From Pandoraea anhela (GTDB lineage: Bacteria; Pseudomonadota; Gammaproteobacteria; Burkholderiales; Burkholderiaceae): a DNA stretch of 64,000 nucleotides. The notes beneath the pieces are model-generated. The model was given only the letters and a program-made list of their open reading frames with translations. It made no database searches and had not been told where the DNA came from. The DNA is taken from the NCBI RefSeq assembly GCF_902459655.1, contig NZ_CABPSB010000022.1, positions 1-64,000 on the forward strand, in the 5' to 3' direction. Positions 8,370 to 49,991 of the stretch are shown piece by piece; the stretch's first letter is position 1; every line of letters starts with the position of its first letter. Made by a program: the position numbers and the translations under genes.

Positions 8370-8460
8370 TGGCGGAGAGGGTGGGATTCGAACCCACGAT
8401 ACGGTATAACCGTATACCGGATTTCGAGTCCGGCGCATTCGACCACTCTGCCACCTCTCC
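8370..8460 (-). tRNA. tRNA-Ser (anticodon CGA)
   Basis: The minus strand reads GGAGAGG for the 5' acceptor arm and CCTCTCC plus discriminator G and an encoded CCA at the 3' end. The D arm has GTGGCAGAGTGGTCGAATG. The anticodon loop is CTCGAAA (anticodon CGA, reading UCG). A long variable arm (TATACGGTTATACCGTA) is typical of serine tRNAs, and the T arm contains GGTTCGAATCC. The mature length including CCA is 91 nt. The 3' end faces the integrase gene, so this tRNA is the likely integration site of the element to its left. Confidence 0.96.
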
Positions 8461-20957: not shown

Positions 20958-22430
20958 TCAGAACGGATTCAACGGCGAGATGGCCGAATCGTCACTGCCG
21001 TCGTGCTTTGGTCTGCGCGTTGGTCCGCGCTTTTGTCCGCACTTTGTCACGTCTTCGGGCCGTCCGCCGCCGGCCATCCGCGCGCACCGCCCGAACGCCT
21101 CGGCCAGCGGCTTGCCGTCCCATGCGCCCTCGCCGAACCGCTTTGCCGTTTCGCCGAACAGCCGGCGCTCCAGCGAGACGACGCTGTCCCCGAGCGCGAC
21201 GTCGCCCGTTGCACGCGCCCATGCAGGCAGCCCCATCCCGACGACGTACCGGCTCCACCGGTCGGCAGCACGGTAGGCAGTGTCCGGATCCGACGCCAGA
21301 CAGGCGCGCACGACCATGGCGTGAAGCGCCCGTGCCTGCACAGCGGGCCGTGTCCGCCACGCGACATAGCGTTGGCGCACTGCCGGCCATAACCCGCGAG
21401 CGCGCCACAGGGCGTACGCCACGACGCTCAGCATGGCCAGCATCGCAATCCCCTCTAGAACCGCGCCGACCCGCCCGTCATCGCCTCGCGAAAACCACGC
21501 GGTCCCGCCAGGCGCCATACCGCCCGTCGGTGCGCCTGGCGCGACGACGACCCGAAGCGCGGGAGCTTCCGAGCGTTCGCGCTGTCCGGACGCCGGATCG
21601 ATCCAGTCGAGCGTGATGGCCGGCAGCGTGTAGGTGCCCCGACGCTCGAAGACGTATGAAAACGTATCGACGCGCAAGCCGCCCGCGACCGGGTCCGCGA
21701 CGTTCGGCGACACGCCGTCCGAGAGCTTCGGATCGGCGGCGAACACCCGAACGCCGCGCGGCGCCTGCGCTTTCGGTGGCTGAATCCGCATGGCCTGCGT
21801 GTCAGGTGCGAACGTCGTCACCGTCCGGACCAGGGTATCGCCCGCGCGAAGCTGCACGCCGTCCTGGCCGGCAGCCGGGGTAAGCGACTGCGTAACGGTC
21901 AGCTTCGCGACCGGCAGCGTCGCCCTCTGCCCGCCCTCCCCTGCCTTGCGTGCCGGCGATGTGAGCGCCGGCGTGCCCCCGGCCCCGACCCGGATGCGCG
22001 TCGTGGGGAGCGTGACTTTCGCGTGTTGCGCCGCGCCGTCGTCACCGGCGTACGTCACGTCGATAGCAACGGGAGGCAACACGTAGTCGCCATCCTGATC
22101 GGCGGCGAACGCGTAGGTCCGGGTGATGGCGGCGAAGGTGGCGCCGTCGAGGGTCTCCGTGGCATTGAGCGCGCGGGCATCCGGCATCGTCACGACCGCA
22201 CCCGGCACCTGAAACAGCGGAAAATCGGGCGCCGCCATGAAGAAGTTCGGCACGAGCACGGTAACGTCCACCGTCACCTGCTGTCCGGGACGAATGGGCG
22301 ACGACGTGCCCAACACCACGCGCGCCATCGGCTCGGCCGCCATTGCCGCCCCCGTCGCGACGAGGCACAGCAGTACGACAACCCCCACGGTAACGCTGAC
22401 TAGCCACCGGCGGCAGCGGTTGTCCGACAT
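20958..22430 (-). CDS. batD: BatD-like protein (oxygen/stress tolerance operon)
   Basis: A membrane-anchored BatD-family protein. From MSDNRCRRWL (22430) a signal peptide (VTVGVVVLLCLVATGAAMA, cleaved near AMA-AE) leads into beta-sandwich modules with the BatD-style phrases SSPIRPGQQVTVDVTVLVPNF, FAADQDGDYVLPPVAIDVTY and FSYVFERRGTYTLPAITLDW. A transmembrane helix (GIAMLAMLSVVAYALW) and a cytoplasmic tail of about 120 residues follow. An ATG at 22577 overlaps the batB stop (ATGA) and would add 49 residues ahead of the signal peptide; translational coupling could use it, so the start is uncertain. It closes the MoxR-Bat operon. Confidence 0.85.
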   Translation of the reverse strand: MSDNRCRRWLVSVTVGVVVLLCLVATGAAMAAEPMARVVLGTSSPIRPGQQVTVDVTVLVPNFFMAAPDFPLFQVPGAVVTMPDARALNATETLDGATFAAITRTYAFAADQDGDYVLPPVAIDVTYAGDDGAAQHAKVTLPTTRIRVGAGGTPALTSPARKAGEGGQRATLPVAKLTVTQSLTPAAGQDGVQLRAGDTLVRTVTTFAPDTQAMRIQPPKAQAPRGVRVFAADPKLSDGVSPNVADPVAGGLRVDTFSYVFERRGTYTLPAITLDWIDPASGQRERSEAPALRVVVAPGAPTGGMAPGGTAWFSRGDDGRVGAVLEGIAMLAMLSVVAYALWRARGLWPAVRQRYVAWRTRPAVQARALHAMVVRACLASDPDTAYRAADRWSRYVVGMGLPAWARATGDVALGDSVVSLERRLFGETAKRFGEGAWDGKPLAEAFGRCARMAGGGRPEDVTKCGQKRGPTRRPKHDGSDDSAISPLNPF

Positions 22431-22573
22431 GCTGGCGTCCCTGGCCTTCCCGGTGCCCCTCCCGTCGTTCTTCCCGTCGCCCATTGCCTTCCTTCGGCGC
22501 AAGGATCGCGCGTCGCCACCGCCAGCGATCGGACAGACGTGAGATCGACGGGAAGCCAACGTCATGCCGGGGG

Positions 22574-24250
22574 TCATGGCGCACGCCCTCCCGGACGCCC
22601 TTGCTGAAGCGCGAATTCGCGCTGTAGCAAGGCCGTCGGCGTCGTCTGAATCGTGCGCATCCACATCTGCGTGTCCTGCGACGGTCCGGGCTTCGTCGCC
22701 GTCTCGCCCGGGCCTTGGGGCTTTGGCGCGTCATAGCGAATCTCGTCGGGCGCAATGTCCGGCGCGATCTCGTCGTCGTCGGCAGACGGCTTGCGGGGCT
22801 TCGGCAATGCCGCGATCAGACGCCCCATCAATGCAAGATTGGCCTGTGCGGCGGGCCAGTCCGGCTTGCGCCTGAGCGCCGCGCGGTAGCGCGCCTGCGC
22901 CCCCTTGTAATCGCCAAGACGCGCCAGTGCGTTGCCCTGATCGAAGTCGCTCTCGGGCGAATCGATCAGCGCGAAACTCTGCGCCGCCTGCGCGTATTGC
23001 CCCGCACGATACTGCGCCACGCCGCGCCACATCGGGTCGTCGAATCGCTCGGCCGCTTCGGCGAAATCACCGCGCTCGAACGCGCGACGGCCCTGCTGAT
23101 CGCGCGTGAGCCACAGGTCGACGAATCGCCAGCGACGCGGCGTTTGCCCCGCGTCGGCGGACGCCGCCGCCACCCCCTCGCCGCTCGCCCGAACGGAGGT
23201 CTGCGCGAACGCGGGCGGGGCAGGCATGGGCAACGACAGCGCCAGCAGCACGCCGACGATCCAGCGCACCGTCCAGCCCTTGCGGAACCAGAACGCGCCG
23301 AGCACGACGAGCGCAATCGTGCCCCACCAGCCTTCGTCGCGCCAGCGCGCCGCTGCGCCCGTTTGCGTCTGCTCCAGATGAGACTGCACGTGACGCAGCA
23401 CCCAGTCGATGTCGTCGTCGCCATCGGCCTTAAAGGTCGCCACGGGCACGCCGCTGTCGTCGGCGAAGCGCTTGAGCGCGCGTTCGTCCAGACGTGCGAA
23501 TACGCGTGCACCGTCGCGTTCCACATAGCTGCCGTCGGGCATGCCCGGGGGATGTAACGGCCCGCCTTGCGTCGTGCCGATGGCCAGCACGACCGCCTGA
23601 CTGCCCGTGTGTGCGCGCAGTGCCTGCGCGGCGGCCACGTCGACGGCGTCGGTCATGAACAGGATCGTGCCCGGCGTCGGTTCGCGCCGCAGATCGTCGT
23701 CGACCACGCGCAGCACCTGCCGCATGTCTCGCCCGGGCACCGGCATGATGCTCGTCTGCAATGCATCGACATAGGTGCCGAGCAACGCGCTGTCGTCGGT
23801 GAGCGGCAGCACGCGATGCGCCGAACCCGAGTAGGCGTAAAGCGCCGTGCGCGCGCCTTCGCGACGGGCCAGCAACGCCTTGACCTTGAGTTTCGCGCGC
23901 TCGAGCCGCGTCGGCGTCACGTCGACCGCATCCATCGTGGGCGACAGGTCGATGGCGATCGCCAGCGGCGCCTTCTCGTCGAGAAACGGCGGCAGTTCCC
24001 GTTTCCACGACGGCCCCGCCATGCCGATCCCGCCGAGCACCAGCACGAGCGCGATCAGATGCACCGGACGCAGCCGTCCCCGCGGCTGCGCCTGAATGAC
24101 CAGCGCATCGAGCAGATGCGGCGCAATGACGCCGCGCCAGCGCCGCCGTACATCGGTCTGACGCTGGACAGCCCATACGATGGCGAAGGCGACCGGCACA
24201 AGACACAGCCAGAACGGCCGGAGGAAATGAAAGTGGGCGAGATCGGTCAT
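22574..24250 (-). CDS. batB: BatB-like VWA protein with C-terminal TPR region
   Basis: A 558-residue inner-membrane protein. Two hydrophobic segments at the N-terminus are followed by a von Willebrand A domain (about residues 85-285) with a modified metal site DLSPT near residue 100, where the usual DxSxS has Thr at the end, and a second loop FMTDAVD. A membrane helix pair follows (TIALVVLGAFWF, WIVGVLLALSLPMPA), then tetratricopeptide repeats (EAAERFDDPMWRGVAQYRAGQYAQAAQSFAL...), then a disordered Pro-rich tail. It combines the functions that are split into BatB and BatC in Bacteroides. Start 24250 overlaps the batA stop (ATGA); a longer frame upstream is a shadow of batA. Confidence 0.88.
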   Translation of the reverse strand: MTDLAHFHFLRPFWLCLVPVAFAIVWAVQRQTDVRRRWRGVIAPHLLDALVIQAQPRGRLRPVHLIALVLVLGGIGMAGPSWKRELPPFLDEKAPLAIAIDLSPTMDAVDVTPTRLERAKLKVKALLARREGARTALYAYSGSAHRVLPLTDDSALLGTYVDALQTSIMPVPGRDMRQVLRVVDDDLRREPTPGTILFMTDAVDVAAAQALRAHTGSQAVVLAIGTTQGGPLHPPGMPDGSYVERDGARVFARLDERALKRFADDSGVPVATFKADGDDDIDWVLRHVQSHLEQTQTGAAARWRDEGWWGTIALVVLGAFWFRKGWTVRWIVGVLLALSLPMPAPPAFAQTSVRASGEGVAAASADAGQTPRRWRFVDLWLTRDQQGRRAFERGDFAEAAERFDDPMWRGVAQYRAGQYAQAAQSFALIDSPESDFDQGNALARLGDYKGAQARYRAALRRKPDWPAAQANLALMGRLIAALPKPRKPSADDDEIAPDIAPDEIRYDAPKPQGPGETATKPGPSQDTQMWMRTIQTTPTALLQREFALQQGRPGGRAP

Positions 24251-46949: not shown

Positions 46950-47040
46950 GGCGAAACCCGGCGCCTCGGATCGTTGCTGGCGGTCCATCCGGGCGGCATT
47001 CCAGGCGGACAATCGAGGTGACCCACCGCGTTCCGACCGT

Positions 47041-47073
47041 CACGGGGATTTGCAGCTTTCGCTCATCCCCGTG
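47041..47073 (+). terminator. Hairpin after the DHA2 exporter gene
   Basis: Stem CACGGGGAT / ATCCCCGTG, 9 bp, in the 216-base gap before the next gene, with only weak T-richness after it. Confidence 0.45.
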
Positions 47074-47134
47074 CCGTTCCCCGCAATTGACTGACGTTCC
47101 CCAAAGTGCACAACCGATAGTGGCCCCACTGTAG

Positions 47135-47162
47135 GAACTCCTTCCAACGCCATAAGGAGTTC
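47135..47162 (+). promoter_or_regulatory. Inverted repeat that can hide the ribosome binding site of the 411-aa gene
   Basis: GAACTCCTT (47135-47143) pairs perfectly with AAGGAGTTC (47154-47162) around a 10-base loop. The right arm contains the Shine-Dalgarno AAGGAG (47154-47159), six bases before the ATG at 47166. In mRNA the hairpin would block ribosome entry until opened. A near copy precedes the next gene. Confidence 0.7.
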
Positions 47163-47165
47163 GTC

Positions 47166-48401
47166 ATGGGCGGCACTGAACCACTGTCGAAAGCCCTACC
47201 GCCGAATCAAACGCAGTATTCGACGTTCGCATCGCAGTCACCGACGTCGTCAACGGCCTCGTCGCCGCACGCGTCCGACGCGACGCAACGCCTTCCGCAA
47301 GACCTCACCACGGTGCGAAGCACGACGCAACGCCCATCGGAGACGAGTAACTTCATCGCGACTTTCGCCAACCGCCTCTTCCCCCCGAGAGTCGCGCCGA
47401 TCTGCACGCCGACCTCGCCGCCGAGCGCCATACAGGCGGCTCGGGCGCGGGGCGCAGCGGCATTGGCGAAGCTGCCCCCCGTCGCCTGTCAGTCGGTCCA
47501 CACGGCGTTGGCGCCCGCCGTCGCGCCGCCGGTCTCGCGCCTTGCCGACTTGCCCAATGTGGCAAATGCGGATGAGCGCTACAGCGCGTGGATCAAGCTG
47601 CTCTATGACGAAGCAAGCACAACCGCGCGGATGACACCCCGTCAGCTCTCCCCTTTCGCCGATGCGCTCGACGACTTGCACGAAAGGCATCGACCGTTCG
47701 CGGCCGAATTCTTGATCGTGTTCCTGAGGGACTTCTATGTCAGCAACAAGCCAGGCGAACTGGCAACGTATGTCGGTGAGGTTTTCGATGCCATGAAACG
47801 GCCGGCATGCGCCACGGCATTGGTGCGCGGCTTTTTCGATTGCACCGCGACCGTATTCGGCGACAAGCAGCACCTCGTTGCGACAGGGATCCTGACCCAT
47901 CTCGATCGCCGCATGCAAAGCGATGCCGATCGGCTCTGGCGCGCTACGGCCATCTGGTCGCTCGGGTTCATGCGCCCCGAGCAACGCTACGATGCCTGGG
48001 AGAGCGCCTTCACCCGGCTGCGCCACCGCTTGTCGACGGCGTGCGTTGCCGACATCGGACTCCATGCCAGCGCAATCGGGCTGATCCCGGCGGGCGACCA
48101 GCAGCAGCGAGCGGCCGGTCAGTTGGTCAGGTTCATCGTCATGTCGCTAAAACGACTCGACGCTCGCGACGCCAGAATGACGTTTGTTTGCGATGCGCTG
48201 TCGGCCATCAGCGACAAGGCGGTCCGGGCGGACATTGCCGAAAGACTGATGGAGCGCGCCAGTGCGGATAACAGTGCATCACGGGACGAAGTGACTCGCG
48301 TTATCTCCGAACGGCTCGACATGTTCGATCCGGGTACCGGCTTCCATTTCCTGAGCCTGCTGAGTCGCACGGGCAAGTCGGCCCAATCAGAAAAGTCCTG
48401 A
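47166..48401 (+). CDS. Unknown protein with disordered S/T/P-rich N-terminus and helical body (411 aa)
   Basis: I do not recognise this protein. Residues 1-75 are rich in Ser, Thr, Pro and Gln with few acidic residues (TQYSTFASQSPTSSTASSPH is typical); no Sec signal or membrane helix is present. From about residue 115 to the end it reads as an alpha-helical repeat body with two related turns, ERYSAWIKLLYDEA and QRYDAWESAFTRLRHRL. Such a layout, a disordered secretion-prone N-terminus and a helical body, is seen in type III effectors and in some toxins; that is only a suggestion. The start is fixed by AAGGAG at -12. The gene pairs with the next one, which has the same leader. Confidence 0.7.
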   Translation: MGGTEPLSKALPPNQTQYSTFASQSPTSSTASSPHASDATQRLPQDLTTVRSTTQRPSETSNFIATFANRLFPPRVAPICTPTSPPSAIQAARARGAAALAKLPPVACQSVHTALAPAVAPPVSRLADLPNVANADERYSAWIKLLYDEASTTARMTPRQLSPFADALDDLHERHRPFAAEFLIVFLRDFYVSNKPGELATYVGEVFDAMKRPACATALVRGFFDCTATVFGDKQHLVATGILTHLDRRMQSDADRLWRATAIWSLGFMRPEQRYDAWESAFTRLRHRLSTACVADIGLHASAIGLIPAGDQQQRAAGQLVRFIVMSLKRLDARDARMTFVCDALSAISDKAVRADIAERLMERASADNSASRDEVTRVISERLDMFDPGTGFHFLSLLSRTGKSAQSEKS

Positions 48402-48440
48402 CGCGAGCGACAAAGTGGACTGCCGGACAACCCGGCAAAG

Positions 48441-48482
48441 TGCGGACTCCTTTATCGATGTATCTCCTGCAAGGAGTCCGCA
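48441..48482 (+). promoter_or_regulatory. Perfect 12-bp inverted repeat over the ribosome binding site of the 502-aa gene
   Basis: TGCGGACTCCTT (48441-48452) pairs with AAGGAGTCCGCA (48471-48482) around an 18-base loop. AAGGAG (48471-48476) is exactly six bases before the TTG start at 48483, the same distance as in the previous gene. The loop contains CTCC, which could also compete. Together the two leaders look like one control device used twice. Confidence 0.72.
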
Positions 48483-49991
48483 TTGTTCCCTTCTTCACGC
48501 TACACGCACATCGTCCCGGCAACCGGGACGACCGCTGCCGACAACCCGGCGACGACTTCCCCGCCGCTTTCCCCCCCGACTTGCGGCCCAAGTTCCAGCG
48601 CTTGCGCGACGACGGCGACAACATCGGCGCTGTCAGCCCAGTCGACCCCATCGACCGTATTGCGCACCACCTTTCTCAACGATTTCTGGCAGACGTCCCA
48701 AGCCCCGCTAAGCCCGTCGATGGCGATGGCGATGCCCGGCTTCGGCCCGGGCGCCGCCGAGGAGACGCTCCCCTCCTTGCCGTCGCCACCGTCGCCACCG
48801 TCGCTGCCGTCATCGCTCATGACCGCCACCGAGTTTTGCATCGACTTCTCGGGCTTATTCGAACACCCCTTACCGTGCGGGGCCACCGCACGGGTGCCGC
48901 CCGCACCGACAGGCAAGCGCAGCGTCTCGACGGCATTCGATGAGGACGCCACCGCGAACGCCGCACGATGGAAGCGCCTGGCCGCTCTGCGCGAGATTCC
49001 GACGCTCGAACCGAAGCCGTCGACCTCGGGCATGGTCGCTCGCACCCGCCCGCCGATTCCGGATCACGTGTTGCGCAAAGCGCTGCTCATCCTGGGCGAG
49101 CCCGCAACGCAGGCGTCTGACGGGTTCGCCACGCTCGAATCGCGGGCCATCGACGTGGTGCTGGAAAAAGGGCGCTACGCCGATGCGCATCATCTGCTAG
49201 AAGGGTTGCTGCGACGGCTTGAGACCCATCAACATCACCCGAACTGGACGACGGCATTCGAGCGCGTCGTGGCTCTCGCCCTGCGGTTCGAGGCCCGCAC
49301 GGAGCAAGCCGCGCGGGCAATGCTGCTCACCTGCGACAACACTTCCGGCGACGCTGCGCAAGCGCTGGCGCACGCATCGACGCATGCCAGCATCGAGCAT
49401 CTGGTGGCGCACCGGCTGCATGCGATCGCCGATATGCCCGCCGAAACACGCGCCGGCGAATGGCGCAACCTGCTCGCCGGCATGCAACGATCGAAGGCGT
49501 GTACGACGGCGCAACGTCTGGTGCCGCTCGCGCGATTCATCGGTTTGCTCGCCGAAGCGGAGCAAACCCCCGCAGCGTGCGCCGTCGTCGAGGCGGCGTG
49601 CACGTTCACCGGCCACGGCGGTTGGCGCGAATTGGCGTCGCAACTGCTTGGTGCCGTGCCCCGCGGTGACACCCCAACGATTGCGCAAAGCCTCACGAGC
49701 AGCAACCGGCGCATGTATGGCGACGACATGAAGGCCATCGTCGAAGCGGTCTCGGATCGCATCGATCGCATGCCTGACGCAGCCGCACGAGCGCTGGTCG
49801 GCCATCTCGAGACGATCGTCATGATGCGGGGTGACTTCGACTATCTGGTCTTCGGGCCGGACGAGTGCGCGCAAATGCTCGACGATCTGCGCTCGACCTG
49901 TCGCCGCAGCGGCTTCGACGATCTGGCCGCCGGACTGGACGCAACGCTGGAGGAAGTCTGCGACGAATACAAGCGGACGATGATGGACTGA
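48483..49991 (+). CDS. Unknown protein, partner of the 411-aa gene (502 aa)
   Basis: Unrecognised. The start codon is TTG at 48483; it is supported because the AAGGAG spacing equals that of the preceding gene. Residues 1-115 are again low complexity (Ser, Thr, Pro, Ala), and include LPSPPSPPSLPSS from a 9-bp DNA repeat (about 48780-48815). The body, residues about 180-500, is alpha-helical with repeat-like turns (AIDVVLEKGRYADAHHLLEGLLRRL, CAVVEAACTFTGHGGWRELASQLLG). No catalytic motif is seen. It starts 82 bases after the previous stop and ends before a strong hairpin, so the two form a unit. Exported effector or helical scaffold are both possible. Confidence 0.68.
   Translation: MFPSSRYTHIVPATGTTAADNPATTSPPLSPPTCGPSSSACATTATTSALSAQSTPSTVLRTTFLNDFWQTSQAPLSPSMAMAMPGFGPGAAEETLPSLPSPPSPPSLPSSLMTATEFCIDFSGLFEHPLPCGATARVPPAPTGKRSVSTAFDEDATANAARWKRLAALREIPTLEPKPSTSGMVARTRPPIPDHVLRKALLILGEPATQASDGFATLESRAIDVVLEKGRYADAHHLLEGLLRRLETHQHHPNWTTAFERVVALALRFEARTEQAARAMLLTCDNTSGDAAQALAHASTHASIEHLVAHRLHAIADMPAETRAGEWRNLLAGMQRSKACTTAQRLVPLARFIGLLAEAEQTPAACAVVEAACTFTGHGGWRELASQLLGAVPRGDTPTIAQSLTSSNRRMYGDDMKAIVEAVSDRIDRMPDAAARALVGHLETIVMMRGDFDYLVFGPDECAQMLDDLRSTCRRSGFDDLAAGLDATLEEVCDEYKRTMMD

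Follow-up and report, generated by a model that had tools for sequence, protein, structure and literature searches.

Two adjacent genes of Pandoraea anhela, here called A and B, each carry their Shine-Dalgarno sequence (SD) in the 3' arm of a leader hairpin, and comparison with related leaders indicates that this hairpin closes off the SD and extends to the start codon in a gene family that appears restricted to Pandoraea. A possible, and in our judgement somewhat doubtful, reading is that the gate of this chromosomal family reads the origin of the transcript: RNA from the gene's own regulated promoter would begin in the anti-SD arm and be translated, whereas RNA from the neighbour would be sealed at the SD and start codon, and promoter and gate would form one inherited unit moving with the gene. 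Both genes lie in the window, by which we mean the whole stretch of 64,000 nucleotides analysed (contig NZ_CABPSB010000022.1, positions 1 to 64,000), and comprise the following features:

47049..47065, plus strand: TTTGCAGCTTTCGCTCA, an element conserved before A-family genes, its columns being kept in the A leaders
47103..47132, plus strand: boxes of gene A, AAAGT (47103-47107), 19 bases, CACTGT (47127-47132)
47135..47162, plus strand: hairpin of gene A, a 9-bp stem with a 10-nt loop and the SD AAGGAG (47154-47159) in the 3' arm
47166..48401, plus strand: gene A, 411 aa, ATG start at 47166
48390..48441, plus strand: boxes of gene B, GAAAAG (48390-48395), CAAAGT (48411-48416) and CAAAGT (48436-48441)
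48439..48484, plus strand: hairpin of gene B, a perfect 12-bp stem (14 bp with one G-U pair) with an 18-nt loop and the SD at 48471-48476
48483..49991, plus strand: gene B, 502 aa, TTG start

The arms of the gene A hairpin are GAACTCCTT (47135-47143) and AAGGAGTTC (47154-47162), those of gene B TGCGGACTCCTT (48441-48452) and AAGGAGTCCGCA (48471-48482). AAGGAG is separated by 6 bases from ATG 47166 in gene A and from TTG 48483 in gene B, where the stem extends into the TTG codon besides hiding the SD. A first-pass annotation of this DNA had pointed out both hairpins, and all that it described of them (stem lengths of 9 and 12 bp, loop lengths of 10 and 18 bases, the same SD, the same 6-base distance) was found in place; the reach of the stem to the start codon, the conserved upstream boxes and the paralogy of A and B are absent from it. 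The two-hairpin arrangement exceeds chance. ACTCCTT-N4-25-AAGGAGT occurs only at these two sites in the 6,046,012 bases of the genome (reversed-pattern control: 0), and the shorter form CTCCTT-N3-30-AAGGAG, present twice in the window, did not appear in any of 100 shuffles. The 91- and 121-nt leaders had fold z-scores of -2.47 and -3.21, the bare hairpins of -2.71 and -5.66. For comparison within the window, 37 genes were chosen by GC3, 22 of which have a recognisable SD. Ranked among these 22 by the predicted cost of opening the SD, B comes first (11.8 kcal/mol) and A third (9.4 kcal/mol), the median of the other 20 being 3.8 kcal/mol; with the tetramer GGAG taken as SD, the costs are 15.0 kcal/mol for B and 9.3 kcal/mol for A. 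Opening is also costly for the gene at 20961-22664 on the minus strand (11.5 kcal/mol, z 1.9 over shuffles), which may have a structured start or a wrongly assigned start codon.

The named species closest to this DNA are Pandoraea capi and P. captiosa, in keeping with its assignment to Pandoraea. Judged by profile comparison, A and B are distant paralogs (probability 84%, E 7.2e-6, 81 columns). A search of 61 genomes found gene A in 6, all of the same genus, while gene B gave 28 matches spread over 23 of 32 same-genus genomes and was recovered by profile in 23 of 299 genomes of the taxonomic family, each again of the same genus. This distribution suggests a paralogous gene family confined to Pandoraea. 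No Pfam or NCBIfam family above cut-off and no transposase family matched A or B; among the weak Pfam matches below cut-off, DUF7739 came out best (E 0.0029), with 3 of the 17 B members matching it. A search of PDB sequences with B returned no match at E < 0.8, and a fold search with the model of A none at E ≤ 0.001, its top rows being helical repeats. The structure predictions were built on 3-sequence alignments and reached a mean pLDDT of 51.7 (B) and 67.7 (A). Both products have an N-terminus rich in Ser/Thr/Pro, modelled with low confidence in A, and a C-terminal part predicted to be helical.

Of the 23 closely related A/B genes, 21 follow gene A or an MFS gene that runs in the same direction, with the match ending 77-260 nt away; this includes 16 of 17 close B genes. 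Downstream of 13 of the 17 close B genes, within the stretch examined, lies a gene that we take to be hemY-like. In one genome (G014, leader L008), the A-family gene is relocated relative to the other five genomes and sits behind a co-directional ORF, which from its motif is presumably ParA-like; the upstream element, the box pair (with an 18-base gap) and a similar hairpin are all kept despite the relocation. This relocated gene suggests that the putative promoter and gate travel with the gene.

The 28 B matches consist of 17 close leaders, 10 distant ones and one 104-aa fragment, which was left out; together with the 6 A leaders, the close ones form a set of 23 that includes the window's two. 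In 22 of these 23, opening the SD is predicted to cost 8.0-15.0 kcal/mol at 30 °C, and the same 22 exceed leaders whose upstream part was shuffled by at least 2.4 standard deviations. Only L025 does not sequester its SD (5.4 kcal/mol, z 0.0). In a scan for unbroken stems of at least 6 bp, 21 of 23 leaders show the SD hairpin, the stem being bulged in L005 and missing in L025. The consensus fold of the 17 B leaders (130 nt) consists of the SD hairpin and 3 weak pairs, with no second upstream structure other than these, and that of the 6 A leaders (130 nt) shows the same hairpin with the ATG included. Loop length varies among the close leaders (9-18 nt), and the distance from SD to start is nearly constant (6-8 bases in 23 of 23). 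The TTG start that the first-pass annotation had assigned to gene B is supported by all 17 close B leaders, in which TTG (15) or GTG (2) is followed by Phe-Pro directly after the hairpin, this TTG/GTG plus Phe-Pro pattern being the one by which the B starts were located. The annotation had regarded orthologues lacking the inverted repeat as evidence against such a device: they exist among the 10 distant copies, which mostly have no such stem (SD-opening cost 1.6-9.0 kcal/mol), whereas the SD is still sequestered in 22 of the 23 near copies.

Covariance models built from the B and the A leaders were run on the 32 genomes, with 150 candidates per genome scored. The B model gave 17 strong matches (E ≤ 1.7e-9) and the A model 6 (E ≤ 1.6e-8), which is expected by construction, because the models were built from these same leaders; among the candidates scored, no further gene with the hairpin was found. 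One weaker match (L061 in G020, E 9.4e-4) appears by eye to belong to transporter genes. Two individual cases were also noted. G013 holds two B-family copies (leaders L025 and L032), one leader being strongly sequestered (10.7 kcal/mol) and the other not (5.4 kcal/mol) on the standard measure. In the B-family gene of G016 (L024), 91 bases instead of 22-32 separate the CTCC of the 5' arm from the start, and the short hairpin is gone, yet the CAAAGTGCGGGCTCC sequence is kept.

Within B, 95.1% of stem cells are paired, compared with 28-52% for slid partners. Pair 14-45 is A-U in 12 leaders, G-C in 3 and G-U in 2, and 4 cells are changed on both sides. On three measures, 4-5 of 500 shuffles equalled the B data; on the counts of pairs and of types, 151 and 132 of 500 did so. 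In A, 86.4% of cells are paired, with no excess covariation in this family. Covariation inside each family is therefore weak on these counts, and the compensatory stem changes that the annotation had suggested looking for across relatives turned out to be few within each family. A spacer test compared the 5 bases before CTCC with the bases after the SD and set the result against re-pairings. For A, B and L030, the last added by hand (18 types), 3 of 10,000 re-pairings were as good with one bulge and 261 without; omitting L030 (17 types), the numbers were 18 and 228 of 10,000. No excess was seen inside B (2267 and 3085 of 10,000) or inside A (1025 and 936); like the covariation and shuffle figures, these are not probabilities, because the sequences are related. 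With no excess in either family, the spacer signal is a contrast between families, namely the same stem in different letters. Pairing is maintained although loops vary and the A and B stems differ, and the consensus folds, the kept pairing and the variable loops together indicate that the hairpin probably acts as RNA. The duplicated control device that the first-pass annotation had seen here stands as a shared element; since A and B are distant paralogs, it probably came down with the gene and was not copied between unrelated ones.

Conservation differs between the two arms. At pairs 8-51, 9-50 and 10-49, departures from the majority number 0, 0 and 1 of 17 on the 5' side and 4, 7 and 6 of 17 on the 3' side, part of the 3' variation being one-base alignment shifts (L014-L017, L025, L032); the opposite holds at pair 14-45, where the 5' side departs in 5 leaders and the 3' side in 3. 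The stronger conservation of the 5' side at three outer pairs and the retention of the arm sequence in G016 suggest a function of this arm at the DNA level, which would most simply be that of a promoter with the start inside the arm.

Upstream of the hairpins, the leaders share promoter-like boxes. In gene A, 5 bases separate CACTGT from the CTCC of the 5' arm, and in gene B the last CAAAGT (48436-48441) lies at the same distance of 5 bases. The joint pattern AAAST-N19-CANNGT-N5-CTCC has 17 matches in the 32 genomes, 15 at A/B leaders and 2 elsewhere, with none for the reversed control; it misses 8 of the 23 leaders, each a base or two off. Most B leaders show GCAAAG, CAAAGT and CA(A/C)AGT at constant spacing between the upstream gene and the hairpin, and a longer B pattern, with 1 mismatch allowed, was matched at 15 B leaders and at 3 sites elsewhere, its reversed control giving 5 matches. 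A related box pair is present in 5 of 6 A leaders with spacings of 19 and 5, and in L008 with 18 and 5. From this arrangement, we infer that the A and B boxes may act as promoters. A promoter scan found no sigma-70 consensus here, so that such promoters would depend on an activator or sigma factor of their own. The element at 47049..47065 is a possible activator site: allowing at most 1 mismatch, it has 5 matches in the 32 Pandoraea genomes, 4 of them directly before A-family genes, and only this placement is telling, because the reversed control gave 6 matches. The A family also has a GATAGT-like stretch further upstream of the hairpin.

The explanation that we prefer, tentatively and short of calling it probable, is that the gene's own promoter starts the RNA within the 5' arm and that only read-through RNA is silenced. 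The box pair ending 5 bases before CTCC would be this promoter. RNA made from it would begin within the 5' arm, without the outer stem, and would be translatable, while RNA running in from the upstream gene would hold the whole 5' arm, fold and remain untranslated; the gene would then be expressed only upon firing of its own promoter. Moving the RNA start from 30 nt upstream to CTCC itself is predicted to reduce the median cost of opening the SD in the 23 leaders from 12.3 to 4.9 kcal/mol, near the 3.8 kcal/mol of the 20 other window genes. This drop and the co-directional MFS gene or gene A upstream speak for this explanation, together with the consensus folds, the spacer signal, the fixed spacing of the boxes, the conservation of the outer 5' arm, its retention in G016 and the relocated gene of G014, which again follows a co-directional ORF. 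Several points count against it, namely the missing sigma-70 promoter, the uneven conservation of the 5' arm, the weak covariation, the unsequestered L025 and the gene B of the window, where the cost falls from 15.1 to only 6.4 kcal/mol with the short RNA. Furthermore, the GATAGT-like stretch of the A family could be a -10 element, which would place the full hairpin in every RNA, and CANNGT may be conserved merely through pairing near the start codon.

Nearly as likely, with silencing of read-through RNA only slightly ahead, is a gate activated in trans, in which all transcripts carry the full hairpin and a small RNA, an RNA-binding protein or a helicase opens the stem on demand for the product. 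With 22 of the 23 full leaders costing 8-15 kcal/mol to open at 30 °C, near-complete silence would be expected without such help, the weak TTG/GTG starts in B suit tight control, and the position of the GATAGT-like stretch upstream of the A-family hairpin fits as well. However, the loops and flanks of A and B share little sequence by eye, so that a recognition site common to both is not apparent. Apart from the 3 weak pairs, the upstream region holds no second conserved structure, and such a gate would leave the stronger conservation of the outer 5' arm unexplained.

We consider it unlikely that the inverted repeat is instead a DNA operator that binds a dimeric repressor at the promoter, the RNA pairing being incidental. 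The boxes alongside at fixed distance do suggest a constraint at the DNA level, and the weak covariation in each family would agree with it, but the distance between half-sites varies with the loops (9-18 nt), pairs kept as G-U break the DNA symmetry, and the 3' arm coincides with the SD, with the start codon in nearly the same place (6-8 bases) in 23 of 23 leaders. Very unlikely is a stem that mainly shields the RNA against decay at its 5' end: the hairpin could be near the mRNA 5' end under either promoter model, but such protection needs no SD pairing, and the SD sequestration predicted in 22 of 23 leaders would have to be a side effect.

Least probable of all, and rejected here on predicted stability, is the RNA thermometer, which the first-pass annotation had named as one candidate beside an sRNA target and a switch released by another factor, and in which the stem would melt at host or environmental temperature. 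Pandoraea species are found in patients and in soil, and as in fourU and ROSE thermometers the SD is predicted to be paired in a leader stem; unlike those, however, the A/B stem is long, almost fully paired and predicted to stay closed up to 50 °C, its anti-SD is CTCC and not UUUU, and there is no match to an Rfam thermometer. At 50 °C, the predicted probability of an unpaired SD does not exceed 0.4% in 20 of 23 leaders (L005 1.7%, L008 5.1%, L025 11.6%). Opening at 42 °C costs 6.2-13.1 kcal/mol in 22 of 23 leaders and 4.5 kcal/mol in L025, against 2.5 kcal/mol for Escherichia coli ibpA and 4.7-4.9 kcal/mol for ibpB by the same method, a rough yardstick because ibpA is only loosely shut at 25 °C too (4.1 kcal/mol). 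Scanning 46950-48600 against Rfam up to E 5 returned one weak unrelated match inside gene A on the minus strand, and no riboswitch or other Rfam leader family matched. Across the window, the sole Rfam match over the gathering score is an ordinary tRNA gene at 8373-8460 on the minus strand.

Leader hairpins that hide the SD are well known. Transposase genes of the IS10 type are protected from read-through transcription by fold-back, and the A/B hairpin is predicted to hide the ribosome site in the same way in RNA entering from upstream: read-through RNA with the full 5' arm would be closed, while the gene's own RNA, starting inside the arm, would escape. In contrast to the IS10 type, A and B are genus-specific chromosomal genes in which no insertion-sequence feature was seen, the stem extends to the start codon, and the RNA start is here a proposed one. 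In mRNAs of type I toxins such as tisB, the SD is sequestered in the leader as well, the full-length RNA being inert and activity being set by the 5' end. Our proposal likewise has a translationally inert full-length RNA and lets the 5' end decide; unlike tisB-type toxins, which are small, the A/B products are proteins of 392-502 aa. In searches of the open-licence literature, including passages of PMC5006887, we found no description of the A/B family or its leader, of the genus-wide conservation or of the coupling to a fixed promoter-like architecture; those passages do not describe fold-back protection of the IS10 type either. If the preferred reading is true, non-transposon genes use the position of a promoter within a hairpin as insulation against read-through, which would be a cheap way of silencing a gene behind an active neighbour. 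The leaders also mark a Pandoraea gene family without known family match, and the tight control suggests that its products are made only in a special condition.

Regarding the products, some type III secretion effectors have a disordered N-terminus and helical repeats. Similar to such effectors, the A and B proteins are rich in Ser/Thr/Pro at the start (31-54% of the first 80 residues in both families, compared with 14-20% of the last 250) and predicted to be helical in the C-terminal part; unlike them, they have no family match. The secretin model TIGR02516, which may score other secretins too, is matched over cut-off in 29 of the 32 genomes; G001 has both A and B and no secretin over this cut-off. 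In the genome of the window itself, the best secretin match (G000:C23:11675-13143, minus strand) is split over two overlapping stretches in different frames, which could be due to a frameshift or a sequencing error.
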